The notes beneath the pieces are model-generated. The model had not been told where the DNA came from and searched no databases. It worked only from the letters and a program-made list of their open reading frames with translations. Shown piece by piece: positions 5,171 through 17,643 of a DNA stretch of 64,000 nucleotides. Every line of letters begins with the position of its first letter. Within the stretch, counting starts at the first letter, position 1. Made by a program: the position numbers and the translations under genes. The stretch is from Synechococcus sp. CC9605 (GTDB lineage Bacteria; Cyanobacteriota; Cyanobacteriia; PCC-6307; Cyanobiaceae): positions 2,046,001 to 2,110,000 of the forward strand of contig NC_007516.1 of assembly GCF_000012625.1 (NCBI RefSeq), given 5' to 3'.

Positions 5171-5588
5171 TAGGGATTCCCTGGAGTCAGTGATCCATCT
5201 TTTTCCGGGGGCCGTGGGGAGGTGGATTCTGCTGGCTAGATATAAATGACTGCAGTAAATTAGGCAAGTTGCCGTATAAGAAGATTTGGCCGATATCATC
5301 AACCATCTGCTTCAAAATGCAGCGCGTTCTCCACTCCTTAATGCCCAGCAAGGAAAAAGGAGCTGCTTACAAACGGGAGATGGCAATGCAGCAATTTAAA
5401 AGTGCTTTTGTTGAACATTAGCGAGCCTGCCATACCAGCGCGATTCTCCCTAATAATTATATTTACTGAGGGCAGTGTTATTAAGCCAAGTGTGGACACT
5501 CAGGACCAAGTTACAACAAAATGAATGGGAACTAGACAAGATCATCCAAATTTGGATAAATTATTATAATTTAAGCAGTGAGATTGAA
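5171..5588. other. Gene-free stretch, mostly AT-rich
   Basis: The second half is markedly AT-rich. Only a 26-codon frame at about 5341 (MPSKEKGAAYKREMAMQQF) is present, without further support. I see no RNA gene or repeat. Confidence 0.4.
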
Positions 5589-6242
5589 TTATTCTGAGGT
5601 ATTGACGATTATTTCTACACGACGATTGCGTTGTCTGCCTGCAGGATTATCTTCTCCTTTATCAGTTTCATTCGGTTCTATAGGCTTGGTTTCTCCAAAC
5701 CCTCTAACAACAAAGTTAATATCAGTCAATCCACCATTCTCAACGAGCCATTTACGAACAGATTCCGCTCTTGCTTCAGAAAGAGATTGATTGTACGCAT
5801 CAGCCCCCTTGGAATCTGTATGCCCTTCTATACGGACATCACCACGAGCCATTTCAGTAATTTGCTTTGAAGCAATTCGAAGCGATGGAAAAGCAGAAGG
5901 CTTAAGACTTGACTTATCGAAATCGAAAAGGATATCGGATGAGATATCAATTAGAAGCTCGTCTTGCGACTTAGTCGATGTATACAAATCAATGATCGGG
6001 TAATCAAGGTCCAGAACACGAAACTTAAGTTCTTTAATTGATTCACTCTTTTCCTTATTACTTGGAACATAATCAAGCCCTCCTTCAATTTTTATATCCT
6101 TAACAGGTTCCCGGCTTGTATTAGCTACAATATTGTCAGATCCAGCAAAAAGTTTATTAGCACTCAAGTATGAAATTAAAGCAATTGCTATAAGAGGTAG
6201 TGGCCTGATAATGCTTTGCCGAAGGGGAATATTTTTTTTCAA
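5589..6242 (-). CDS. OmpA-domain envelope protein
   Basis: This protein of about 217 residues has an N-terminal membrane or signal segment (PLPLIAIALISYLSANKLFA) and a C-terminal OmpA/MotB peptidoglycan-binding domain: ILFDFDKSSLKP, IEGHTDSKGADAYNQSLSEAR and NPAGRQRNRRVEI. It would sit in the periplasm and hold on to the cell wall. I prefer TTG at 6242 because GGAG lies eight bases upstream and because it leaves only four bases after the stop of the lipoprotein gene at 6247. The two form an operon. Codon usage is AT-rich, unlike the backbone, suggesting acquired cargo. Confidence 0.8.
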   Translation of the reverse strand: MKKNIPLRQSIIRPLPLIAIALISYLSANKLFAGSDNIVANTSREPVKDIKIEGGLDYVPSNKEKSESIKELKFRVLDLDYPIIDLYTSTKSQDELLIDISSDILFDFDKSSLKPSAFPSLRIASKQITEMARGDVRIEGHTDSKGADAYNQSLSEARAESVRKWLVENGGLTDINFVVRGFGETKPIEPNETDKGEDNPAGRQRNRRVEIIVNTSE

Positions 6243-6246
6243 GAAT

Positions 6247-6861
6247 CTACTCCGATATAGGGATATCTTCCATTGGAGCCACACCGGGTATATAAATGGA
6301 AACTTTTTTGACATCAAGTGGAGGGGCTGGGAATTTTGCCCAGAGATTTATACTAGATCCAGGTTCAATCGAAAGCGGTGTTTCTGATGTACTGACTACA
6401 GGCTTCTTGTCCGTTCTAACCACCAAGTGCTTTCTTTGATTTGCACTATCAATAATGTATATTCCATCGCCCCAGTTGCCTGCGGCCAATTGATACTTGC
6501 AATACCAACCAGTACTACACTTAACTAACTCCTGGGTGGCAGAAGATTGATTTGACACCCTCCAGTACACATTCAAAGTGTCTCCGCTTGCTCGCTTAAC
6601 ATCAAGGAGGGATACTTCAATCCCCTGAAGCCGATAGGGCTCTGTCGCTAGGACAGATTCTTCGTTACCTGGATTATTGCTTTCAACAAAATTACTCAGA
6701 TTAATTTTCTTTGTATTGGTAGATTTCGCCTCAACCTCTTCCTGACTACTCACTTGACTCTCTTGCTCGGCTGTAAAATTCTTTTCGTTACACCCCATCA
6801 ACAAAAAAGCTATCAAGAGGTTGGAAATAAATAGGCCTAGATAGCGATTGATAAGATTCAT
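6247..6861 (-). CDS. Unknown lipoprotein
   Basis: This 204-residue protein has a signal peptide and lipobox (LLIAFLLMGC, cysteine near residue 24), followed by an acidic linker and a beta-rich domain with two cysteines (CSTGWYC). It should be anchored to a membrane on the periplasmic side. No family is recognised. It lies directly upstream of the OmpA-domain gene, so both may form one envelope structure. Codon usage is AT-rich like its partner. Confidence 0.65.
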   Translation of the reverse strand: MNLINRYLGLFISNLLIAFLLMGCNEKNFTAEQESQVSSQEEVEAKSTNTKKINLSNFVESNNPGNEESVLATEPYRLQGIEVSLLDVKRASGDTLNVYWRVSNQSSATQELVKCSTGWYCKYQLAAGNWGDGIYIIDSANQRKHLVVRTDKKPVVSTSETPLSIEPGSSINLWAKFPAPPLDVKKVSIYIPGVAPMEDIPISE

Positions 6862-7109
6862 CTAATTCAAAAATAAATATTGACCATGCTGTAATTTTAC
6901 GAATCGACCGATTCATTGGCACGATTTATTACGTTATCTTAAGCAGCGGCCATCCCAAAAAAGCTTGGGGCGTTCTCTTCTTTTGGCTCACTTGGCTAGC
7001 TTAATTCACTAATTAGACAACCTCGCTGGCCTTCAAATAAATAAAATTACTGATATTTGCTTGTATGCATTAGACTCTGAACAAAGCTTCTTAAAATTAA
7101 GTGTTTCCA

Positions 7110-7718
7110 ATGAAGCCACTTACCAGATTCATTGTTATTGACGTATTTTTACTGGCAATGCCAGCCATGGCTCAAGACATTATCTGTGGCAACGACTTAA
7201 TAAACGTAAATGGCAATTGGATTGGAGCCAATCGAGATTCAAGGCAATGCCCTAAAGAAAAAATTGACAGTGATAAAAACCAAGCAGAAGAAAGTGACAC
7301 TGATGATATTGATAGCTCGCAATGCGAGGTATACAATACAGAATATATTTCAATAAATCTCAGATACGAGCGTTCAATTGTATGTGCAGCGGCGTACATG
7401 TTTGTGCGATCAAATACTGACGCTGATGAACGTGGATTATACTGGAAACCTGATCGTAATCGCTTCAGACAATGCTTAGGAGCCAATGGATTTGGCCCAG
7501 AGGAAAGGGAGAATATTATTAAGTGGCATCCTCCCGTATCAGGAAGTTCTCCGGCCATAGCGGCTGAATACATGATAAAAAGTGCGAATGAACGTATAAG
7601 GCTTATGGAGGACTGCCGAGCATATGGAGTGAAGTCTGGTTCGTACATTCCGCCATGGAAGACTCAAGAAGTTAAGCCTCAGAAACCCATGATTCGGGCT
7701 ATGCCTGCACAACATTGA
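7110..7718 (+). CDS. Secreted unknown protein
   Basis: This protein of about 202 residues has an N-terminal signal peptide (FIVIDVFLLAMPAMAQ) and several cysteines, suggesting an exported, disulfide-bonded protein. The middle is acidic (ESDTDDIDSSQCE). ATG at 7110 is chosen over the in-frame GTG at 7101. No family is recognised. It is AT-rich and stands alone at the edge of the accessory zone. Confidence 0.55.
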   Translation: MKPLTRFIVIDVFLLAMPAMAQDIICGNDLINVNGNWIGANRDSRQCPKEKIDSDKNQAEESDTDDIDSSQCEVYNTEYISINLRYERSIVCAAAYMFVRSNTDADERGLYWKPDRNRFRQCLGANGFGPEERENIIKWHPPVSGSSPAIAAEYMIKSANERIRLMEDCRAYGVKSGSYIPPWKTQEVKPQKPMIRAMPAQH

Positions 7719-7901
7719 TGCTGATGCGACAGCTAACAAAGCTTTGCCGGAAATTTGCATGATCCTTGTTGTGAGATGTGAATAAAAAGTCCCTGCGTTT
7801 GCAAGGACTTTGGGTGGGTTAGCTTCTTCCAAATTCGCACATACCTATTGATTGGATCGAGGTTTACGGGCAGAAGTAATCATCTGAACACTGCCATCGC
7901 G

Positions 7902-8280
7902 TCATCTGAACGGCACTGCACGACAGCTGGGGTGAGGGTGTCCTCGGAGTCCCCAAGACCTCCATCCCATGGTTTTTGTAGGAACCATTGGGCGCTGAGT
8001 GTCAGCGTTCTTTTCACGCCGACACAGCAAGCAACGGCCTGACTCCCTCTCTGGCGAGCGGGGAGTCAGATCAGCGTTTTCAGTTGCCACAACATTTCAG
8101 CGAGTCATTTGGTCGCCGCTGCCGCCTCATCTGAACGGCACTGCACCCATTACAGAGGCGATGGTGTCGCCGGAAGTTCAGTCGAGCTTCTTCCATCCAA
8201 TGGCCTATCCCTGTCATTGGGCGCTGATCAGAAGCTGGCTCCCTCTCTTTCCGGTCGGGGAGTCAGTTCAGCGTTATCAG
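7902..8280. repeat. Two diverged copies of a structured non-coding unit
   Basis: Copy 1 is about 7902-8083 and copy 2 about 8127-8280. Both start with TCATCTGAACGGCACTGCA, carry CATTGGGCGCTGA in the middle, and end with a hairpin (8041-8067 and 8237-8264, arms GACTCCC/GGGGAGTC) followed by CAGCGTT. The parts between are less similar. Conservation of the hairpin arms while the loop differs suggests RNA structure. No convincing protein spans either copy. They could be a tandem small RNA or a mobile repeat. Confidence 0.5.
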
Positions 8281-8385
8281 ACGGGTGGTGGACACCGCCG
8301 CAAGCTTTTTTTCTCTTGGCAACAAAAAGCTGAGGTTGGTATCGAATCGCTCTGAATCGACTCGCGTCACTGGCGTATTTAAGGT

Positions 8386-8449
8386 GCGTCCCGTTCTGGA
8401 TGGGCTCCGGGCGGGACGCGGACCCATGTCAGCGGCAACTGCTGGGTCC
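8386..8449 (+). other. Two adjacent perfect hairpins
   Basis: GCGTCCCG (8386-8393) pairs with CGGGACGC (8412-8419). Directly after it GGACCCA (8420-8426) pairs with TGGGTCC (8443-8449), followed by GTTTGTCTT. The second could act as a weak terminator. The surrounding 7719-8832 region holds no gene I can support and is rich in such structures. Confidence 0.4.
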
Positions 8450-8832
8450 GTTTGTCTTAGCGAAAAACGATTGTCTTCAGCGCACTGGCGGTGAGCACCG
8501 CCGCCAGCCTGTTCTGAGCATCTTGTCCCACGCGTCGATGGCGTTGTGCCGAAGCATCCTTCTGCGGGTTTGCGGGACTGGTGGGCGAGGTGGCACCCAG
8601 CTGTAGGTGCGCACCGCCACCCACTGGGCGTGAACCGTGGCTTAGTCAGGTTTGAACTGACAAAGCAGTTGCTGTTCAGGACTCACAAGCCAACCCTCAC
8701 CACCCTGTTTCTCAGGCGGGGGATTGGTGGCGCGGTCCTTGTTTGCCATGGGGTGGATTCTGGCCATCGCCGTCGCCAAACTGGCGTTGCCAACAAACGC
8801 CCAAGCCGGGAACCGCCACGACCAACGTTGAG

Positions 8833-9117
8833 ATGACGTGTCTTCAGGGTCTGGCGGATTTGGAAAGGCTGGAGGGGCCATGGCTTGATGGCCTGGCCAC
8901 CGGCGATCCCGAAGTGGCGGCCACCACGGTGCGCCTGCTGCTGGCCCACCTGACCTGGAACAGCAAGCGACTGCTGGGGGCGATGGTGCTGGACCGGCTG
9001 GACGCCGAATCGTTGTCAACGCGAGCCGAATTCCCGGATCGTTGTCAACGCCTTGTCAACGAACTGGATTCTGTCAACGGCCTGAATCTCTTAGATCCCC
9101 TGGCCTGGAATAGTTGA
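8833..9117 (+). CDS. Small unknown protein ending inside the left att repeat
   Basis: This 94-residue frame has strong GC third-position bias, like real local genes. Its helical part (GDPEVAATTVRLLLAHLTW) is loosely reminiscent of the C-terminal helix of TerS-like proteins, but this is weak. The last codons (TGG AAT AGT TGA) lie within the 52-bp repeat, so the repeat supplies the end of the gene. The DNA encoding residues about 60-82 contains four copies of a 9-bp iteron (TTGTCAACG). It may be a genuine end-gene of a second element or a truncated remnant. Confidence 0.4.
   Translation: MTCLQGLADLERLEGPWLDGLATGDPEVAATTVRLLLAHLTWNSKRLLGAMVLDRLDAESLSTRAEFPDRCQRLVNELDSVNGLNLLDPLAWNS
9013..9079 (+). 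repeat. Four TTGTCAACG iterons, possible integrase arm sites
   Basis: Copies are at 9013-9021, 9042-9050, 9053-9061 and, with one change, 9071-9079. They lie about 27 bp left of the left att repeat, as the TTTGTCCTGA pair lies left of the right att repeat. By position they may be arm-type binding sites of a different integrase. Confidence 0.45.
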
Positions 9118-9157
9118 GGGGGCCTTCCAGCCCCCGTGAGTCAATTGGGTGATACGG
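9106..9157 (+). repeat. Left attachment-site repeat of the island (attL candidate)
   Basis: It matches 17326-17377 at an exact offset of 8,220 bp, with three differences in 52 bp. The first 30 bp are identical and contain a GGGGGCC/GGCCCCC-type hairpin. The right copy directly abuts the 3' side of the tmRNA gene, a common integration target. The integrase gene begins 129 bp to the right of this copy. Confidence 0.85.
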
Positions 9158-9260
9158 ATTAATCAATTGACTGGAAGAACTCAGACATCAGCCAATAAGC
9201 GAGTCATAGACAGGAATTGTAAGGAACAGAGGATTACACAGGGGAAGCAAGAGGAGCTAA

Positions 9261-9295
9261 TTTGTCCTGAGATTTGTCCTGAACCTTGGTCCTAG
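9261..9295 (+). repeat. TTTGTCCTGA pair, probable integrase arm sites (left end)
   Basis: Exact copies are at 9261-9270 and 9273-9282, with a variant (TTGGTCCTAG) at 9286-9295 that overlaps the integrase start. The same pair with the same 12-bp period occurs at the right end (17262-17283), inside the att copy. Confidence 0.7.
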
Positions 9296-10500
9296 CTGCC
9301 AAATGGGAAGAAGGCTTCCGAGCAGCCGTCAAAACTGGACGCCAGGGGTGGACTGTCGGGAACAACAGCGGAAAGGTCAGGCTGAAAATCCGGGCGAAGG
9401 ATCTCCGCACTGACTCTGCAAACCTTCCATTCCCCTGGACTGCTGAAGCCGTCGGCGATGCACTGCTGTTGATCAACCGGGTCTATCCGCTGTGGATGCA
9501 AGGTGATGTCTCCCTGAAGCAGGCCATTGCTGAGGTGAGCGGCACGAGCGACAAGCTCAAGCCAACGACCAACAAAGGGTGGCCATCAATAGTTGAGAGC
9601 TTTCGCGAGACCCTCCAAGAAGGGCGGAACCAAATCCTCGACTCGACGTACCGAGACAACTACGAGCCCTACTTCAATGAAGCCCTGAAAGCGCTTCGCA
9701 GCCGGTCTTCACCCGCTGATGGCCATGAACTCCTCAAGCAAACCCTGAAGCGTTGGGCGGGGAAACCATCGAGCAGAGCCGCTTGCTGCCTTGCCTTGCG
9801 AAATCTCATGGACCATGCGGTAAGTCGCCACCAAATGCCCGCGTCATGGCGAATCAGTCAGACAAGCATCAAGGAACTACGTGGTCGGCCCGCTGAAAAG
9901 AAGACAAAAGCGACGCTGACAGATGCAGAGGTGTTGCATCTGATCGAAGCGATAGACGCTCGAAACAATGCTTGGGGCAACGTCTTCCGGCTGATGGTCT
10001 TATTTGGTCTGAGGCCAGTAGAGCTGCAATACCTCGCTCCAAGGAGAACAGAAGCAGGCGATCTCGGCCTATGGTGCAGCTACCGGAAGATCTCGGGTCC
10101 AAACCGTTGCGATCCCAGATGGCTGCTGCCCCTGCCATTAGAGAAACCATCAGGAGAGCAAGTCTCCTGGAATCTCTGCCAGGCCATGGATGCGGGTCTC
10201 TTGGAGCTACCGGTTGGCCGTGATGGCGACCTCAGGAAACTAAACGGGCGATACGTGCTGAACCACTTGAACCGCCAACCTGAATGGCTTGAGTTGAAGC
10301 AGCGATACGAAGTCAAAGGCATGTGGCTGAGACCTTATTCATTTCGCGATGGCTACAGCGTGCGAGCCCATCGATATGGCATCGAAACCGCCCAAATCTG
10401 CAGAGCAATGGGACACGGACTTGCCGCCCATAGCAGAGCCTATGAATCAGCGACGGACGCAACAACAAGAGCAGCTTTTGAAGCGGCTATTGGTAGCTAG
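9286..10500 (+). CDS. Tyrosine integrase of the tmRNA-site island
   Basis: This 404-residue integrase would excise and insert the element at the 52-bp repeats. Residues 1 to about 200 form the arm and core-binding part. The catalytic domain shows arginine near residue 243 (MVLFGLRPVELQYL), lysine in SYRKISG, box II YSFRDGYS near 353, histidine in MGHGLAAHS and the tyrosine nucleophile in RAYESA. The first box II histidine is replaced by tyrosine, a variation seen in some integrases. The start is TTG at 9286, since TGA precedes it in frame; this overlaps an arm-site repeat, so binding could repress its own expression. It is the first gene inside the left att, the standard position. Confidence 0.9.
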   Translation: MVLAAKWEEGFRAAVKTGRQGWTVGNNSGKVRLKIRAKDLRTDSANLPFPWTAEAVGDALLLINRVYPLWMQGDVSLKQAIAEVSGTSDKLKPTTNKGWPSIVESFRETLQEGRNQILDSTYRDNYEPYFNEALKALRSRSSPADGHELLKQTLKRWAGKPSSRAACCLALRNLMDHAVSRHQMPASWRISQTSIKELRGRPAEKKTKATLTDAEVLHLIEAIDARNNAWGNVFRLMVLFGLRPVELQYLAPRRTEAGDLGLWCSYRKISGPNRCDPRWLLPLPLEKPSGEQVSWNLCQAMDAGLLELPVGRDGDLRKLNGRYVLNHLNRQPEWLELKQRYEVKGMWLRPYSFRDGYSVRAHRYGIETAQICRAMGHGLAAHSRAYESATDATTRAAFEAAIGS

Positions 10501-10986: not shown

Positions 10987-11226
10987 ATGCAATCTCAGTG
11001 GATTGATACGGCCGCCATGGCCGCGTATTTGGGCGTGCATCCAAAAACGCTCAAGCGATTGAAGAACACGACAGCGATGTTCGAAGAAGGCATCGACTAT
11101 CGCTTTGCTGGTGCCTCGACGCGTGCACCTCTGCAGTGGCATTTGGAGACAACGGAACAGTCCTTTACTCACTTCAAGCGCATCGACCCTGCAGAAGTGG
11201 AGACCTACGGAGGCAGGGATGTTTGA
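10987..11226 (+). CDS. Helix-turn-helix DNA-binding protein, excisionase- or AlpA-like
   Basis: This 79-residue protein has an N-terminal helix-turn-helix (DTAAMAAYLGVHPKTLKRLK) of the winged MerR/excisionase type, followed by a short beta part. It has a good ribosome site (AGGAG). Such proteins direct excision or control element genes. Its place between the integrase and the replication gene fits this. Homology is judged by pattern only. Confidence 0.6.
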   Translation: MQSQWIDTAAMAAYLGVHPKTLKRLKNTTAMFEEGIDYRFAGASTRAPLQWHLETTEQSFTHFKRIDPAEVETYGGRDV

Positions 11227-11273: not shown

Positions 11274-13169
11274 ATGGGATTTGAGATTCGTGACCACTTA
11301 GCCAATCTGCAACCAGACGGAGGCACAAACACACCCAATGGAGATCACAGCTTTCTCTGCCCAGTACCGGGCTGTGGAGCCCCAAACTTCAAGGTGAACC
11401 TCAGTACTGGCAAATGGGCTGCTTATGGCTGCAACTGCAGCAGCACTGAAAAGGGCAAACGGTCAATCCGAAATGCCCTGTCCCCCGCGATAAATCCAAA
11501 TCAAGGTTCGAACAGAACCTTGAAATCGATCCGCCCCAAAGGTCGCCGCAGCTGGGTCTACTGCGATGAAAAGGGCCAACCGACGCTGGAAGTTCACCGG
11601 ACAGATGACGGAAAGGGCAAACGCAAGATCTGGCAGGAGAGCCTGATTGATGGCTATCGACCCAGAGAACTGGCAGATCGGGTTGTTCCCTACGGATTAA
11701 GTGAGGCAAAGCAAGCCCTCATAGATGGAGCGCCCTACGTGTTCATCCCTGAAGGAGAGCCATGCGCTGATGCTTTGAGGCGACTCGGATTGAACGCTGT
11801 GGCCACCCTTGGCGGTTGTGAGGGTTTCAATCCGGAACGGGATGGCGGCCACTTCGATCCAACAAGAGTGGTTGTGGTGGCTGACCAAGATCAGGCGGGG
11901 GTGAAGTACGCCCGCAAAGTGGCGAGCGCCTATCCCGGCTGTCGGTGGCTACTGGTTTACCCCGGCACACCTGAGTGGAATGGTGCGATGCCAAAGGATG
12001 GCGGGCTGGACGTAGCCGACTGGATTGCAGACGGTGCATCCATAGAGGACGTGCTCAATGGAGTCCAGGAGGACAACCCCTTCGTGAGCCAGGAGCCTGA
12101 ACCAGACCTAAGTCACTTGGCTGAACTCATCGCAAACTCTGCCCAGGGGGGTGTGCGGGACCTAGGAAAAATCTGGCGGGTTAACCAGTTCGCAGCCAGC
12201 GGCATCGTTTTACTGGCTGCCGATTCAGGCACGGGCAAGACCACCTTGATGAACCTCTGCATAGAGGCAATTCAAGAAGGAACTCCATTTCTGGGGGTGT
12301 TCAAGACAGAACAAGCGAATGCACTGCTGATCCAAGGAGATGAACCTGAGAAGTTCGCTGAACGGAAGTTCCGGCGACAGGAGCTGAAACGCAACTTCGA
12401 TGTCATCTACCCCGAAGGTCCGTTCCCTCTTGAAGAGCTTTTCGAAGCCATTGAGTCGCGTAAGTGGTACGTCATCGGGATTGACAGCTTGACCACCGTG
12501 CTGAGCAGCGAAGGGCAGCGGACAGTTGATTTTGAAATTGTCGACCTTCTGTACAAGCTCAACAAAGCAGCGGTTAACAACAACGTACTGCTTCTAACGA
12601 CTGCCCATCTCAACAAGACCCGCCAAGGCGGCAATGGCGTCAGACGAAAGCGTACGGAGATTCAGTGGGAAGACATCAGCGGTATCAACACGATCAGTGC
12701 GGCCGTTCAAGACTGCTGGGGACTGACAAGCCTTGAGGTCGAGCGGTTTTCACTCCATGCCCTCGGCAAGCGAAACATCGTGGAAGGCACCAAATGGCTT
12801 CTTCATCGGGACCGTGAGACATACAACTGGTGGCTTGCGGATGAACAAGACCAGCAACTACCCACCGACGCAGAAAGGCTGGGAGCGAGGGTCCTTACGC
12901 ATGTTCAACAGCACGGCTACATGTCCATCAACGAGATGGTGATAGCTCTCGGTGGAAACGCAGAACATGCCCGGTTGGTTTGCTTTGACCTGTTTGAACA
13001 GGGTCGGCTCCAGCGGCATCCGCGGAGAACTGGCAAGCGTGGGCGTCCCGAATACCTATATGGGGTTGGCGATTTTTCCCATGTCACGCACACCCCCACT
13101 TCAACAACAGTTCCGTACATAGGTGGTGAAGACGATCCGGCATGGGGCCCACGTCCGGAGGTCGTCTGA
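11274..13169 (+). CDS. Primase-helicase: zinc ribbon, Toprim and RepA-like AAA ATPase
   Basis: This 631-residue replication protein has an N-terminal zinc ribbon near residues 24-57 (cysteines in CPVPGCGAPNF and YGCNCS). A Toprim domain covers about 150-240, with IPEGEPCADAL and VVVADQDQAGVKYA. A RecA/RepA-type ATPase domain follows, with Walker A ADSGTGKTTLMN near 318 and Walker B WYVIGIDSLTTVL. The C-terminus carries a winged-helix stretch (YMSINEMVIALGGN). It would prime and unwind element DNA after excision. GGGGG precedes the ATG. Its TGA overlaps the next start (TGATG), so the downstream Toprim protein is coupled to it. Confidence 0.85.
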   Translation: MGFEIRDHLANLQPDGGTNTPNGDHSFLCPVPGCGAPNFKVNLSTGKWAAYGCNCSSTEKGKRSIRNALSPAINPNQGSNRTLKSIRPKGRRSWVYCDEKGQPTLEVHRTDDGKGKRKIWQESLIDGYRPRELADRVVPYGLSEAKQALIDGAPYVFIPEGEPCADALRRLGLNAVATLGGCEGFNPERDGGHFDPTRVVVVADQDQAGVKYARKVASAYPGCRWLLVYPGTPEWNGAMPKDGGLDVADWIADGASIEDVLNGVQEDNPFVSQEPEPDLSHLAELIANSAQGGVRDLGKIWRVNQFAASGIVLLAADSGTGKTTLMNLCIEAIQEGTPFLGVFKTEQANALLIQGDEPEKFAERKFRRQELKRNFDVIYPEGPFPLEELFEAIESRKWYVIGIDSLTTVLSSEGQRTVDFEIVDLLYKLNKAAVNNNVLLLTTAHLNKTRQGGNGVRRKRTEIQWEDISGINTISAAVQDCWGLTSLEVERFSLHALGKRNIVEGTKWLLHRDRETYNWWLADEQDQQLPTDAERLGARVLTHVQQHGYMSINEMVIALGGNAEHARLVCFDLFEQGRLQRHPRRTGKRGRPEYLYGVGDFSHVTHTPTSTTVPYIGGEDDPAWGPRPEVV

Positions 13170-14023
13170 TGGCAAGACGTACCAAAGCTGAAATCGATCA
13201 CATCAAGCTCCGCATCTACCAGTTGTGCAGAGAGATGCAGCCAATGACCGTCAGGCAGCTGTTCTATCAACTGACCACCCTTGGCGTCATCAACAAAACG
13301 GAGGCTGAGTACAAACAGACCGTATGTCGTCTCACCGCAAATATGCGCGTTGGTGGTGAGTTGCCTTGGCATTGGCTCGCTGACAACACCCGTTGGATCA
13401 GAAAGCCAATGACCTATGGCGGTCTTGATGACTGCTTAGAGCAGGCACAACGGGCCTACAGACGCTCTCTGTGGAATCCAAACACCAACGATCAATACGT
13501 TGAGGTCTGGCTTGAAAAGGACGCTCTTTCAGGCGTTCTGTACGAGGTCACCAGGGAATACGACGTGCCGTTGATGGTCACTCGTGGCTACCCGTCGTTG
13601 TCTTACCTACACAGCGCCGCAGCAACGATCCAGCAGGAACTTGAAGAAAGGTGGGGTGGTGAAGCCAGCATCTACTACTTCGGCGACTTTGACCCTTCTG
13701 GCGTCGACATCAGCCGGAACACTGAGCAACGCCTTCAGGAGTTTGTTGACTCCGACGCCTTGGCATTCAAGCGGGTTGCGGTCAACGAAGACCAAATTGC
13801 AGAGCTGCTGTTGCCGACACGGCCAACAAAGGCCACAGACAGCCGTTCCAAGAACTTTGGCTCTGACATCAGCTGTGAGGTTGATGCCATCAGGCCAGAT
13901 GTTCTGCGTTCAATGGTTCGCGCCTGCATCAGCAACCACATCGATGCTGAACAGATCAAAGCGGCTCAAGAAATTGAGCGGCATGAACGGGAGCTGCTGC
14001 AAGACATCAGAAGCCGTTTGTAG
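13169..14023 (+). CDS. Toprim-domain protein resembling TopVI-A/Spo11-type nucleases
   Basis: This 284-residue protein has an N-terminal winged-helix-like part (TVRQLFYQLTTLGVI) and then a Toprim fold: acidic residue in VEVWLEKDALSGVL and the DxD motif in YYFGDFDPSGVDISRN. This order is like the TopVI-A/Spo11 group, though the protein is shorter. A role in cleaving or resolving element DNA during replication is inferred. The ATG at 13169 overlaps the stop of the primase-helicase gene. The stop codon begins a perfect 14-bp palindrome. Confidence 0.7.
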   Translation: MARRTKAEIDHIKLRIYQLCREMQPMTVRQLFYQLTTLGVINKTEAEYKQTVCRLTANMRVGGELPWHWLADNTRWIRKPMTYGGLDDCLEQAQRAYRRSLWNPNTNDQYVEVWLEKDALSGVLYEVTREYDVPLMVTRGYPSLSYLHSAAATIQQELEERWGGEASIYYFGDFDPSGVDISRNTEQRLQEFVDSDALAFKRVAVNEDQIAELLLPTRPTKATDSRSKNFGSDISCEVDAIRPDVLRSMVRACISNHIDAEQIKAAQEIERHERELLQDIRSRL

Positions 14024-14034
14024 GACTAGTCCTA
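14021..14034. promoter_or_regulatory. Perfect 14-bp palindrome at the end of the replication operon
   Basis: TAGGACTAGTCCTA is its own reverse complement and starts at the stop codon of the Toprim gene. It could be a protein-binding site. No other copy was noticed in the window. Confidence 0.3.
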
Positions 14035-14037
14035 CTA

Positions 14038-14139
14038 GACGAAATCATCGAAGCCAGTATCCGCTGCAAGCAACACAGCAATGCAGTTGGTGCTCTGAAG
14101 CTGCAGGCACAGCTGACACGGCTGCTGGAAAGTAGTTAG
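14038..14139 (+). pseudogene. Fragment resembling the C-terminus of a TerS-like protein
   Basis: A short frame reads DEIIEASIRCKQHSNAVGAL followed by KLQAQLTRLL, and resembles the end of the two terS-like genes in this window (asparagine, then GA-x-x-x-x-x-QL-x-x-L). It has no ATG, GTG or TTG start upstream and lies directly after the Toprim gene. It may be a relic of a lost terS-like gene; chance similarity is possible because it is only 33 codons. Confidence 0.35.
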
Positions 14140-14301
14140 GCGGCAATGAAAACTCCGCCATTGCTGACGAGGCAAAAGAATTAACAATATGATTAAAGCG
14201 ACAAGCATCGCACCCTGATTTATTACGATTCAAGAAGTATTCGGAGCCACTGACCGGATTCATGCTTAGGGGGCTAAAATTGTTATTAGATCAAGAATTA
14301 A

Positions 14302-15621
14302 ATGAAAAAATACGCAATATTTCTCCCCGCAAAAGGCAATAGCGAAAGAGTTGCTTCCAAGAATACAAGGTTGCTAGATGGAAAACCCCTGTTTCTTCAT
14401 ACACTCGAAAAATTATTGCAGTTAGGAGATGATTATGAAGTATATTTAGACAGTGAATGTCCTGAGATATTTAAGATGGCAAGTCACTTAGAAGGATTCA
14501 AGCCTTTAATACGTGATCCAGCTTTAGCCACTAACGCAACCGATGGAAATAAGCTTTTCCTCAATGAAGTCTTTAGCTGCAATCACCAAGTCATTGCGCA
14601 ACATCTTTGCACATCTCCATTTATTGAAAATAATACAATAAAAAATTGTTTCTCGAAAGTCGGCCAAATGTCTCAAGATGGATCTTGCTGGGATTCCAGT
14701 TTTTTAGTCAGAAAAGAAAAGTTTTATATGTGGAAGAATGACCTTCCTTTGTATAGCATTGATTCCATCCCCAATAGTGCTGATATTGAAAGCACTACTG
14801 TTGAAACCATGGGGCTTTATGTATGTTCCAGGGAAGCTGCTTTAGACACTGAAAGAAGAATTGGAAGGAATCCTTGCTTGATAGAAGCGAAACCGCTTGA
14901 AGCAGTTGATGTTAATTATGAAGAGGACCTAGAGATGGCGCAATTATTAGCAGCCGGGAAAAGAGAGCAGGAAAGGAACTTGCTGAGAAATTTGTCCTCT
15001 TTGCTGTCTAGTCCAATAATTTCAGATATACTCGATAGCCTAGGTCTTGAATCACAAATCATAAGAGGATTAAATCAAAAATGCCGAAACAACGCAAAGA
15101 TTTTTGGCCCCGCAAAGACAATGCATCTTCGCAGAAAATCAAAAGAAGATAGATTCGACGAAGTTTATGATGCATTAAAGCATTATGAAACTCTCGTGCC
15201 AGGTGACGTTATTTGCGTACAAAATGATTGCCAAGAGTTTGCTTACTTTGGTGAATTAAACGCCAATTTAGCCATCAGATCTGGCGCCATCGGTGCAGTT
15301 ATAGGGGGAATGACGCGTGATCAAGAAGCAGTTTGTAGCCTAGGACTACCAGTTTTCGCCAAAGGGATCACATGCCAAGATGTAAAAAATAGGGCAGTAT
15401 ATTCATCTATGAACAATCGAATTTGTATTGACGGAGTTTTCATTAGTCCGGGAGACATGATGTTCGCCGACAACGAAGGAACTATTTGCATACCAAAAAA
15501 GCACTTTAAAACTGTCTTAGAGCTTGCAAAAGAAAGCATCAGGAAAGAAGGTGAAATAATATCGGATATTGCTACAGGAATAAATGTCAGCGCTTTGAGA
15601 GCGGAGAGAGGAGATTTTTAG
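14302..15621 (+). CDS. CMP-sugar synthetase fused to an RraA-like domain
   Basis: This is a 439-residue two-domain protein. Residues 1 to about 215 resemble acylneuraminate cytidylyltransferases (PAKGNSERVASKNTRLLDGK, then a nucleotide-binding domain), which activate sialic-acid-type sugars with CTP. Residues from about 230 to the end resemble the RraA/HMG-aldolase family: FGPAKTMHLRR, GDVICVQND and GAIGAVIGGMTRDQEAV. RraA-like proteins can be aldolases or decarboxylases of 2-oxo acids, so the fusion may both handle and activate a keto sugar acid for a surface glycan. The gene is AT-rich compared with the backbone, so it is probably recent cargo of the island. Confidence 0.75.
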   Translation: MKKYAIFLPAKGNSERVASKNTRLLDGKPLFLHTLEKLLQLGDDYEVYLDSECPEIFKMASHLEGFKPLIRDPALATNATDGNKLFLNEVFSCNHQVIAQHLCTSPFIENNTIKNCFSKVGQMSQDGSCWDSSFLVRKEKFYMWKNDLPLYSIDSIPNSADIESTTVETMGLYVCSREAALDTERRIGRNPCLIEAKPLEAVDVNYEEDLEMAQLLAAGKREQERNLLRNLSSLLSSPIISDILDSLGLESQIIRGLNQKCRNNAKIFGPAKTMHLRRKSKEDRFDEVYDALKHYETLVPGDVICVQNDCQEFAYFGELNANLAIRSGAIGAVIGGMTRDQEAVCSLGLPVFAKGITCQDVKNRAVYSSMNNRICIDGVFISPGDMMFADNEGTICIPKKHFKTVLELAKESIRKEGEIISDIATGINVSALRAERGDF

Positions 15622-15672
15622 ACGCAAAAAATATCGAATCTGTACCACAAAAACTACCCAGTGCTTCAAACC

Positions 15673-16569
15673 ATGCAAAAAGTTCTAGTCATTGTAACGG
15701 GACAACTTCGCAATTGTTCAGACAATATAAGTAACTGGGTCGACAATCTTCTCCATAATTGTGAATACGATTTTCTTTTCTGCATTTGGGATAACGTAGG
15801 AAACGTAGACAAATTTAAAATACATGAATGCTTGCGCAGAACAGGCAAGAACTATGAAGCATCAAGAGTTAATACATACCTCAAAAAGGATAGAGAGCTA
15901 AGAGATGAATTGAATATTATTTCGCAAAAAGTTCCTATAGCAGAGGAAATTATACATCCTTTTTGCGAGGACTACCATACACAAATCGGCACAATCGCTG
16001 TCCCCAAAAGTCTTATTGCAAATGAACGCTCATGGAGAAGCTCTCTTCCCCTATCATACATAAACCAACTAGCGTTTAACGCGGTAGTCGATAGATACAA
16101 TAAATATGATGCGTACTGTAGAGTGCAGTCCGAAATACTTTTTGAAGAAAGGCAGTACATCGATTGGGAGGCTCTCTCCAAGAAGGACAATGAAATACTA
16201 ACGTCTCCTTCGATCAAGAAAAACATTGATCTCAAATTAGACGTTTCGTTTTATGCAGGATCTTTGAATTCAATTTCAGGATTAATGAATACCTTTGAAT
16301 TTCTAGAGAGATGCTACGAGTCGTATGAAAATGGCGAGTTGCAAGTTGCACCTATAGGCGATAGATTTCTGAGGATTGCTGCAAATCATCGCAGTCTTAA
16401 TGTAAGGCATGATGTAAAAATGATTAGACCACGGGAAAGGCTAATTCCCCTATTTCCGGAAATAAAAAGCGATCTGATGAAAATAAATTCCGGAGAAATT
16501 AATTTTGTCCCTGTCAATAGGAGTCTATTTGACTTTCTCTTGACCAGTGAGCCGATCATTGATTGCTGA
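15673..16569 (+). CDS. Putative glycan-related enzyme of the island cargo
   Basis: This protein of about 298 residues begins MQKVLVIVTGQLRNCSDN, and the VTGQLR start with a later YDFLFCIWDN resembles proteins found in surface-polysaccharide clusters. There is no firm family. It is AT-rich, 51 bp downstream of the CMP-sugar synthetase fusion and on the same strand, so transfer or modification of the activated sugar is a reasonable guess. ATG at 15673 is preferred to GTG at 15661. Confidence 0.5.
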   Translation: MQKVLVIVTGQLRNCSDNISNWVDNLLHNCEYDFLFCIWDNVGNVDKFKIHECLRRTGKNYEASRVNTYLKKDRELRDELNIISQKVPIAEEIIHPFCEDYHTQIGTIAVPKSLIANERSWRSSLPLSYINQLAFNAVVDRYNKYDAYCRVQSEILFEERQYIDWEALSKKDNEILTSPSIKKNIDLKLDVSFYAGSLNSISGLMNTFEFLERCYESYENGELQVAPIGDRFLRIAANHRSLNVRHDVKMIRPRERLIPLFPEIKSDLMKINSGEINFVPVNRSLFDFLLTSEPIIDC

Positions 16570-16752: not shown

Positions 16753-17082
16753 TTACCGCCCGGGAAATTGAAGCCCACAGAGCTTGTCGAGTTGGGCCAC
16801 TGCACCGACAACCGCACCAGGGTTGTTCTGCGCCAAGCCCAGACGTGCACTCTCCATAAGCAAATGAATGGCCTGAGCCACAAGATCACTGCGCTGGACG
16901 TTCGCCTTGTCGATGTCCTCCCTGATCAAGGCGTAAGCCTGTTGAACAGTTCTTTGCGCTGTTCTACGGCTCACCCCCTTGGTCTCCGCCAGGTACGCCA
17001 CAACAGCAGTACAGCTAAAGCCCTCCAAGAGCTTGGAGTGAGCGACCTGAACTCGATCAACGACCTCGACCCTCTTCGGCAT
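16753..17082 (-). CDS. Terminase small subunit-like protein of the island
   Basis: This 109-residue protein has a central helix-turn-helix (GVSRRTAQRTVQQAYALI) and a C-terminal NPGAVVGAVAQLDKLCGL motif shared with the left-edge gene. Small terminase subunits recognise packaging sites; satellites encode their own to hijack helper-phage capsids. It stands at the end opposite the integrase and on the opposite strand, as expected for a late packaging module. ATG at 17082 overlaps the stop of the small upstream gene (TGATG), so translation is coupled. The assignment rests on motif similarity only. Confidence 0.6.
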   Translation of the reverse strand: MPKRVEVVDRVQVAHSKLLEGFSCTAVVAYLAETKGVSRRTAQRTVQQAYALIREDIDKANVQRSDLVAQAIHLLMESARLGLAQNNPGAVVGAVAQLDKLCGLQFPGR

Positions 17083-17258
17083 CAAAGGAGCCCCCGACGA
17101 CGAAGAACACGCTTGAGAGCTTTAGAGGTGTGTGAATCCAGGTCCACCTCATCAAGAGCTGACCTCAAGCGAACACGGAAATCCTTTTGATCCAGTCGCT
17201 GGATCGCGTAATCCAAAACACTGATCTCAGACCGTTCCGCCGCGGCCAAAGCACCCAT
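17082..17258 (-). CDS. Small protein coupled to the terS-like gene
   Basis: This 58-residue frame starts at ATG 17258 and ends TGA at 17082-17084, overlapping the terS-like start. It is charged and probably helical (AIQRLDQKDFRVRLRSAL) with a basic end (KALKRVLRRRGLL). The overlap and codon bias suggest a real gene. A role with TerS, such as a packaging partner or regulator, is inferred from position. Its start lies two bases from the TTTGTCCTGA pair, which could therefore control its promoter. Confidence 0.5.
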   Translation of the reverse strand: MGALAAAERSEISVLDYAIQRLDQKDFRVRLRSALDEVDLDSHTSKALKRVLRRRGLL

Positions 17259-17261
17259 GAA

Positions 17262-17301
17262 TTTGTCCTGAAATTTGTCCTGATTAGCAAGCAGGACAAT
17301 T
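17262..17301 (+). repeat. TTTGTCCTGA pair, probable integrase arm sites (right end)
   Basis: Copies are at 17262-17271 and 17274-17283, same orientation and spacing as at the left end. An inverted partial copy (AGGACAATT) lies at 17293-17301. All lie just inside the right att repeat. Confidence 0.7.
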
Positions 17302-17325
17302 CAAGGATAGCGAGAACCCATGCCT

Positions 17326-17377
17326 TGGAATAGTTGAGGGGGCCTTCCAGCCCCCATGAGTCATTTGGGTGATAAGG
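17326..17377 (+). repeat. Right attachment-site repeat, next to the tmRNA 3' end (attR candidate)
   Basis: It is the direct repeat of 9106-9157. On the minus strand it immediately follows the tmRNA gene and includes a strong hairpin (GGGGGCTGGAAGGCCCCC), probably the tmRNA terminator or 3' structure. Insertion here leaves the tmRNA gene intact. Confidence 0.85.
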
Positions 17378-17382
17378 CTGAC

Positions 17383-17643
17383 CTCACCCCATCTCCCTTA
17401 AAGGGTCAGGCAGCAACAGGGGCTGCTTGACGGGAGAAACGAACGATGTTGTTCGCAGTTACGGGTTTGCTCTCACCGAGCAGGCTTCAGTCACCCTCCT
17501 CATGCCCCGTCGAAACCATTGCAGCCCCGTGAGGGGGAATGGAGCTGAGCGGAATCGAACCGCTGTCCGAAACACTGGTGTGGATCACCTAGTCCGACGA
17601 AGCCGGACCCTGTCATTCTGACAGGAGTGGTGACCTGGAGCAC
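17383..17643 (-). ncRNA. ssrA: Circularly permuted two-piece tmRNA
   Basis: Reading the minus strand, the acceptor half comes first, with GGTTCGATTCCGCTCAGCTCC ending at 17541. A 12-nt spacer follows, then the coding half starts GGGGCTGCAATGG at 17528. GGGGCTG pairs with CAGCTCC to make the acceptor stem, which shows the permuted order. The tag frame at 17406-17456 encodes ANNIVRFSRQAAPVAA and a stop. The RNA rescues stalled ribosomes and tags incomplete proteins for degradation. CCA is not encoded. Outer ends are approximate. Confidence 0.92.
17406..17456 (-). other. tmRNA proteolysis-tag reading frame
   Basis: The resume codon GCG is followed by codons for NNIVRFSRQAAPVAA and TGA. This tag is the form known from marine Synechococcus and Prochlorococcus. 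The AA end is recognised by Clp-type proteases. Confidence 0.92.

Follow-up and report, generated by a model that had tools for sequence, protein, structure and literature searches.

The window analysed here, a stretch of 64,000 nucleotides from the chromosome of Synechococcus sp. CC9605 (NC_007516.1, positions 2,046,001 to 2,110,000), holds an integrated mobile element that carries a gene for a two-domain protein, a cytidine monophosphate (CMP)-sugar synthetase fused to an RraA-like domain. The fusion gene (14302-15621, plus strand; coordinates are those of the window unless another contig or locus is named) is an uninterrupted open reading frame (ORF) of 439 amino acids with an ATG start, stop codon included. 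It is present in one copy in the genome, a single contig of 2,510,659 bases in which psbA also scores over its cut-off, as befits a photosynthetic cyanobacterium. The N-terminal half (amino acids 1-220; 14302..14961, plus strand) belongs to the NeuA/KdsB superfamily of CMP-ulosonate synthetases by its match to Pfam CTP_transf_3 (amino acids 6-124, E = 1.1e-9, 38.9 bits against a cut-off of 22.6), its predicted fold and its conserved residues. The C-terminal domain (amino acids 235-439; 15004..15618, plus strand) is of the RraA/4-hydroxy-4-methyl-2-oxoglutarate (HMG)-aldolase type, with a match to Pfam RraA-like (amino acids 240-395, E = 3.1e-23, 83.1 bits against 24.5) and a corresponding fold. 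The first-pass annotation of this DNA had proposed such a joining of a cytidylyltransferase to an RraA/HMG-aldolase-type domain, and both the single gene and the ulosonic-acid type of its first half are borne out.

The AlphaFold model, built from 21 fusions, has a predicted local distance difference test (pLDDT) score of 86 and a predicted template modelling (pTM) score of 0.77, and is poor at amino acids 15-17, 141-144 and 161-166. One predicted helix (amino acids 207-234; 14920..15003, plus strand; block pLDDT 83-92) links both domains. In fold comparisons the first half matches PpNeuA, the CMP-synthetase for deaminoneuraminic acid (Kdn) (9t4z; Z score 22.1, 190 residues, 2.5 Å), and KdsB (2y6p; Z 18.7, 191 residues, 2.9 Å). 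The second half matches 5x15 (Z 24.7, 196 residues, 2.2 Å), 3k4i (Z 24.5) and the HMG/4-carboxy-4-hydroxy-2-oxoadipate (CHA) aldolase 3noj (Z 22.4, 196 residues, 2.4 Å), and its place in the RraA-like superfamily is given by Pfam score and fold together (Z 22-25). Both halves have similar guanine-plus-cytosine content overall and at third codon positions (GC/GC3 of 0.384/0.333 and 0.399/0.341, respectively). Models of narrower families score below their cut-offs: the synthetase half reaches 47.5 of the 205.7 bits of the PseF model TIGR03584, and the RraA half 58.2 of the 304.5 bits of the LigK/HMG-CHA aldolase equivalog TIGR02798. The fusion thus shares its N-terminal fold and its setting in sugar-acid gene clusters with the superfamily synthetases (PpNeuA, KdsB and the KpsU-type 1h7e), whereas it has an added RraA domain and falls below the KdsB and PseF cut-offs. 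Likewise, it shares the C-terminal fold and the Arg-Asp plus Glu catalytic or metal-binding residues with HMG/CHA aldolase and the RraA-fold proteins 5x15 and 3k4i, but is joined to a cytidylyltransferase and lies in or near polysaccharide-type loci rather than those of aromatic catabolism. RraA is also the C-terminal partner in the hexulose-6-phosphate synthase/RraA (NF005442) and FAH/RraA (NF009399) proteins, with other N-terminal enzymes and in other pathways.

Residues K11, G12, S14, R16, K20, N21, D81, Q100, D203 and N205 of the synthetase half are identical in 21/21 aligned fusions. In the RraA half, Arg339-Asp340 (15316..15321, plus strand) align with Arg123 and Asp124 of 3noj, an enolate stabiliser and a metal ligand, and Glu416 (15547..15549, plus strand) aligns with the metal ligand Glu199. 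These three residues are kept in 25/25 fusions checked, from five phyla and a phage. They comprise 21/21 in alignment A2 (which omits the frameshifted L042, the contig-end fragments L044 and L045, the unfused L047, L049 as identical to L048, and L022) and 4/4 checked apart from it (G206, G531, G593 and G609). For HMG/CHA aldolase, a passage of the PubMed Central (PMC) article PMC5065237 assigns stabilisation of the pyruvate enolate to Arg123 and metal binding to Asp124 and Glu199. By alignment, then, the RraA half carries the residue set of the class II pyruvate aldolases of the RraA fold, a catalytic Arg with metal-binding Asp and Glu.

We prefer to regard the RraA half as catalytically active on the free acid because these residues are kept, because the RraA family offers precedents, and because an RraA gene stands beside NeuB and a synthetase in genome G636. 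One such precedent, FlDet, is described in a portion of PMC8563752 as an RraA-family dehydratase/decarboxylase of a 2-keto-3-deoxy sugar acid; judged by this description, it is like the fusion in family and substrate class and differs as a single-domain catabolic enzyme of alginate breakdown. In G636 (locus L101, G636:C5:43000-60000) RraA has a gene of its own (Pfam, 74.9 bits), which retains the Arg-Asp-Glu set and seems to share an operon with NeuB and with a synthetase of the fusion's subfamily, itself joined to a second cytidylyltransferase of the KdsB type. The order at 5611-9174 of that locus is RraA, NeuB, a phosphoglycerate-mutase-type gene (recognised by eye) and the 464-amino-acid synthetase/KdsB-type protein, which suggests that RraA partners ulosonic-acid activation also when unfused. 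If the RraA half were non-catalytic, an oligomer scaffold or a regulator, the single helix predicted to connect the domains would suit it, as would the binding and modulation of the E. coli RNA degradosome by RraA that is mentioned in PMC5065237. A pure scaffold would not need Arg339, Asp340 and Glu416, which persist across five phyla and a phage, and we consider this explanation very improbable. The domain pairing is also a caution against taking such RraA domains for RNase regulators.

Full-length fusions with the same domain order were found at 25 further places (38-55% identity), 26 including the window: in G206, at 19 genome-contig loci, on two viral contigs, and in G531, G593 and G609. 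The closest relative, a 438-amino-acid fusion with 55% identity in G206, comes from another genus of the same family, and in a tree of the fusions, where phyla are partly intermingled, it is the sister of the window copy (100/100). A scan of genome contigs with a two-row alignment returned 23 loci, of which 19 are intact, L042 is frameshifted, L044 and L045 are cut by contig ends, and L047 is a distant relative (23% identical) that is not fused. The 19 intact copies belong to Pseudomonadota, Bacteroidota, Bacillota and Thermodesulfobacteriota. The viral copies L048 and L049 were found with the two-row alignment A1, and a phylum search added the three full-length fusions of G531, G593 and G609, genomes without psbA. 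Altogether the fusion occurs in cyanobacteria and four other phyla (five in all) and on a large phage contig. The search for the same domain order suggested in the first-pass annotation therefore excludes the refutation offered there, namely that two separate genes had been joined by an assembly error. Within the window's family the RraA half is found in 2/400 genomes, self included, so the fusion is rare there and was probably acquired; its earlier description as unusual holds for the family and not for its presence in five phyla. The window protein gave no tblastn match in phages, single-protein viral pattern scans were negative for both this protein and its RraA half, and among 347 matching plasmid records none covers 80% of the fusion query. 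In the open-licence PMC papers searched we found no description of an RraA/cytidylyltransferase fusion, and queries on 3-deoxy-D-manno-octulosonic acid (Kdo)/4-epi, octulosonic acid aldolase, CMP-Kdo with RraA, and RraA with capsular polysaccharide returned nothing on such a protein.

Gene neighbourhoods connect many of these homologues with Kdo synthesis. Clustering of the neighbours at L023-L049 gave partner c1 in 13/27 loci and partner c2 in 11/27. The recurrent partners are a KdsD/KpsF-type arabinose-5-phosphate isomerase and KdsA (Kdo-8-phosphate synthase), the c1 member of L039 being weakly KdsD-like, and a KdsC-type phosphatase is present in some loci. By tblastn, KdsA lies near the fusion in 12/22 genome-contig loci (L025-L046) and either KdsA or KdsD in 14/22; KdsA or KdsD is also near the fusion in G206. 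The order fusion-kdsA-kdsD-kdsC in a row is found at L036 and L038. The L036 partners all exceed their family cut-offs (TIGR01362, 415 over 314 bits; TIGR00393, 276 over 204; TIGR01670, 136 over 107), as does the KdsC-type protein of L038 (192 over 107 bits). Locus L025 contains two KpsC/KpsS-type genes (Capsule_synth, E = 9e-80 and 3.8e-72), members of clusters that L032 also has, so that both loci look like ATP-binding cassette (ABC)-type capsule loci. In two loci further ulosonate genes adjoin: at L035 (Solidesulfovibrio) kdsA and the fusion are followed downstream by the gene for a 436-amino-acid protein with a cytidylyltransferase part and a haloacid dehalogenase (HAD)-type phosphatase part, KdsB-KdsC-like (12711-14021), and at L039 (5540-8535) an unfused synthetase with KdsA-like and KdsC-type genes stands upstream of the fusion-kdsA pair, making two adjoining ulosonate cassettes.

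At the level of whole genomes, KdsA is over cut-off in 20/23 fusion genomes (host and G206 included; the KdsA and KdsB counts exclude the genome of L025), and in 23/26 with G531, G593 and G609, which carry KdsA (3/3) and KdsB (3/3) elsewhere in the genome. The shortfalls are partial contig-end matches in G449 and G456 and a weak match in G454, and the KdsA matches beside the fusions of G453 and G458 have an in-frame stop within the matched stretch. At the window copy the kds genes are not adjacent but sited elsewhere on the chromosome: homologues of KdsA, KdsB, KdsD and KdsC are encoded at C1:180-191 kb of the host, and a Kdo-type substrate should thus be available. Host matches over the cut-off of the KdsB model TIGR00466 sit elsewhere than the fusion gene. 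Four Bacillota genomes, G448, G450, G451 and G458, combine KdsA (415, 413, 399 and 386 bits) with best KdsB scores of 23-36 bits against a cut-off of 155, which makes the fusion a natural candidate for the CMP-synthetase that activates their KdsA product; the other exception for KdsB is G447 (132 bits, 440-amino-acid frame). In G441 (Mucilaginibacter oryzae) the sole KdsA over cut-off adjoins the fusion and a separate KdsB is present. Both synthetases therefore seem to share one Kdo supply, which argues for a product or role of the fusion unlike that of plain KdsB; duplicate synthetases are known, for example KpsU beside KdsB in E. coli.

The reading that we favour, with about even confidence, is that the fusion serves as CMP-synthetase of a Kdo-type acid and that its RraA half edits, alters or cleaves this 2-keto-3-deoxy acid. 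Kdo is a 4-hydroxy-2-keto acid, the substrate class of HMG/CHA-aldolase-type enzymes. The N-terminal half would join CMP, from cytidine triphosphate (CTP), to the eight-carbon acid, supplied in many relatives by the neighbouring KdsD, KdsA and KdsC and here presumably by the host's own kds genes. The C-terminal half may be metal-dependent and use that acid in its open-chain form, by way of a pyruvate-enolate step; its likeliest role is a change or editing around C3-C4 (retro-aldol/aldol at C4, or cleavage of a wrong or unused form). The activated sugar would then differ from ordinary CMP-Kdo, or its activation would be controlled, before passing to a capsule or other surface-glycan transferase. 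The widespread domain pairing suggests that Kdo-type sugars pass through an additional step on activation, and an RraA half that changes the sugar would make these loci the source of an unrecognised surface monosaccharide. One specific version, in which the RraA half is a Kdo C4-epimerase working by retro-aldol cleavage and re-addition and giving a CMP-activated Kdo isomer undescribed in bacteria, appears unlikely to us. If true, it would mean that a cyanobacterial element, a large phage and capsule-type loci from several phyla have a hidden ulosonic acid in common, with which mobile elements remodel host surfaces.

The proposal that one unit forms and activates a keto sugar acid divides along these lines: activation agrees with the synthetase type of the first half, and formation probably falls mainly to KdsD, KdsA and KdsC, whose genes are found near many homologues and in the host. 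Were the RraA half itself to make the acid from pyruvate and a sugar aldehyde, one protein would replace synthase, phosphatase and CMP-synthetase. The class II pyruvate-aldolase residues and the lack of any kds gene within the examined stretch around the window copy or the phage copies L048/L049 speak for it, but the KdsA genes in 12/22 loci and the KdsC genes in several would then be needless, and the host already has its own KdsA. Pyruvate aldolases of this kind, moreover, usually run toward cleavage in cells, and we judge this route quite improbable. Cleavage is the essence of another explanation, possible though somewhat unlikely, in which the RraA half only edits or recycles: free Kdo-type acid or wrong epimers would be split into arabinose and pyruvate, and the fusion as a whole would supply ordinary CMP-Kdo to the capsule, in the manner of KpsU beside KdsB in E. 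coli. It starts from the instability of CMP-Kdo-type sugars, whose hydrolysis would leave free acid, and is consistent with the retained catalytic residues, the KpsC/KpsS-type genes beside L025 and the common occurrence of a separate KdsB. A synthetase half that is NeuA-like and not KdsB-like suggests, on the other side, another acid, and we are aware of no case in which CMP-Kdo synthesis is edited in this way.

Several observations weigh against the favoured reading of a Kdo-activating and Kdo-modifying fusion. The synthetase half scores 19.4 bits with the KdsB model NF003952 (cut-off 193) and is closer to NeuA than to KdsB in sequence and fold. A NeuB-family gene of the host (C1:2034733-2035440, 269 bits, 771-amino-acid frame) lies about 25 kb from the fusion, left of the window and outside the element, and solo synthetase relatives in G577 and G636 adjoin NeuB. 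In the RraA half, residue 318, at the position of 3noj Asp102, is looser, with Glu in 19 of the 21 aligned fusions, Asp in the other 2, and Glu, Asp, Asp and Asn (the last in G531) in the four further ones. Neither KdsA nor KdsD was found nearby in 8/22 loci (three of the eight, L042, L044 and L045, are short or cut), and no kds gene was found within the stretches examined of the phage contig, G531, G593 and G609. A separate KdsB is over cut-off in 18/23 fusion genomes and in 3/3 more, including two of the six Bacillota fusion genomes (G449 and G454; Selenomonadaceae). The four Bacillota without KdsB over cut-off are metagenome bins whose completeness is not stated, and in one of them, G451, locus L039 carries a second, unfused synthetase (5540-6199).

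Some of these points suit a nine-carbon acid of the sialic, Kdn or pseudaminic type, with the kds neighbours serving another sugar of the same polysaccharide. NeuA and PseF models and PpNeuA are the closest to the synthetase half, and the NeuA-like half, the NeuB genes beside solo relatives and the host NeuB together indicate that the acid might be nine-carbon. The host, by its NeuB-family gene, is probably also able to make a nine-carbon ulosonic acid. A solo plasmid relative (H1) is next to a gene whose annotation is N-acetylneuraminate synthase family, and H4 is next to galE and MptE-like genes. NeuB exceeds 100 bits in 16/26 fusion genomes. Of the remaining genomes, 4/26 have weak matches (32-49 bits) and 6/26 none, so that a strong NeuB is absent in 10/26, against KdsA over cut-off in 23/26. 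Searched with two NeuB queries, the fusion loci examined gave no NeuB, and a plain NeuB-linked sialic-type locus was rejected on that ground. In addition, G448 and G458 have KdsA and neither KdsB nor a strong NeuB, so something else must activate their KdsA product. We regard the nine-carbon alternative as decidedly unlikely: the NeuB comparison overall favours the Kdo reading, with the host NeuB as a point on the other side, and leaves the probabilities that we assign unchanged. Among the sialic, legionaminic and KDO-type acids named in the first-pass annotation, genomic context accordingly favours the last, while the nearness of the synthetase half to NeuA and the host NeuB do not.

Viral contigs L048 (IMGVR_UViG_3300042448_001702) and L049 are identical over the 21,287 bases compared, and at 9397-11713 of L048 the fusion stands between a sialyltransferase-family gene of glycosyltransferase family 29 (GT29) and a SET-domain gene. 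The GT29 gene, of 199 amino acids, is directly upstream of the fusion and over cut-off (PF00777, E = 4.1e-12); small phage-type genes surround the group, and a nearby stretch matches phage tRNA-Arg genes. A synthetase beside a gene from a family of CMP-sugar-using transferases supports the activation role, and this neighbour, like the KpsC/KpsS-type genes of L025, fits a CMP-sugar product. By analogy this suggests that mobile elements may use the fusion to alter host glycans, and the presence of the fusion on a phage contig and in an element at a tmRNA site makes a link between mobile element, surface sugar and phage sensitivity testable.

In the window, the element is an 8.2-kb insertion delimited by a 65-nt direct repeat (89% identical, spacing 8220). 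The distal attachment (att) copy is at 9093..9157, and the other, at 17313..17377, overlaps the 3' end of the transfer-messenger RNA (tmRNA) gene that forms the integration site (17315..17629, minus strand; ARAGORN). Inside the left end lies a 24-nt double TTTGTCCTGA-type repeat (9259..9282, plus strand) with a 96% identical partner inside the right end (17260..17283, plus strand, from repeat comparison); being about 100 bases or less inside the element ends, these are possibly integrase arm sites. The core begins with a tyrosine-recombinase-type integrase (9286..10500, plus strand; phrog_1 integrase, E = 3.3e-6), with homologues in the related elements L078, L079 (82% identity), L080, L082 and L084. 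It continues with a small helix-turn-helix (HTH) protein (10987..11226, plus strand; weak HTH_17 match below cut-off; homologues in L078, L079, L082 and L084), a primase/helicase (11274..13169, plus strand; phrog_239 DNA primase/helicase, E = 1.4e-18; AAA_25, E = 6e-11), which has matches in 51/400 genomes of the family, self included, and a topoisomerase-like protein (13142..14023, plus strand; phrog_6247 DNA topoisomerase, E = 8.7e-62). At the far end is a small conserved protein (16753..17085, minus strand) with homologues in L080, L081 (78% identity) and L084; its by-eye likeness to a terminase small subunit found no convincing PHROGs or phage match.

Related elements in other genomes share core genes with this one, and a tRNA gene is present in 6/8 of the stretches compared. 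The tRNA genes close to these elements are those for Val, Ala, Thr or Pro, while the window element sits at the tmRNA 3' end. The fusion is absent from 8/8 related stretches; in L085 there is a weak match (24%) to the first 94 amino acids of the fusion. The GC content of 0.37-0.42 over 14001-16500, against 0.52-0.57 for the element core, makes the fusion and the orphan gene that follows it look like separately acquired cargo. With an integrase, attachment repeats and its own replication genes the element is plausibly satellite-like. Carriage of the fusion by an integrated mobile element is supported and carriage by a satellite plausible; the searches gave neither a terminase match nor a link to a helper. 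Like tycheposons and marine phage satellites, it is a small integrated element with a recombinase, a primase, attachment repeats at an RNA gene and variable cargo. The tycheposon definition, as quoted in PMC10872708, asks for a tyrosine recombinase and a tRNA at the border in 4-200 kb. The 8.2 kb and the integrase of the window element fit, whereas the border RNA is here a tmRNA.

The second cargo gene, just downstream of the fusion (15661..16569, plus strand; ATG at 15673), encodes a 302-amino-acid orphan with GC of 0.37-0.39. It gave no match in Pfam, NCBIfam, PHROGs or the PDB, no relative in the 399 other family genomes, in phages, in plasmids or by viral patterns, and no similarity to the phage GT29 of L048; its single-sequence model (pLDDT 33) was discarded. 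From its context it is possibly a transferase partner of the fusion. A scan for promoters and terminators was uninformative, with 7 and 5 sites, respectively, where shuffled sequence gave 6.3 and 3.6. Just upstream of the window, in the same genome (L086, C1:2036000-2046000), there are remnants of a second similar element, namely the C-terminus of a primase (7419-7523, 74%) and the small minus-strand protein (8791-8946, 94% over 52 amino acids).

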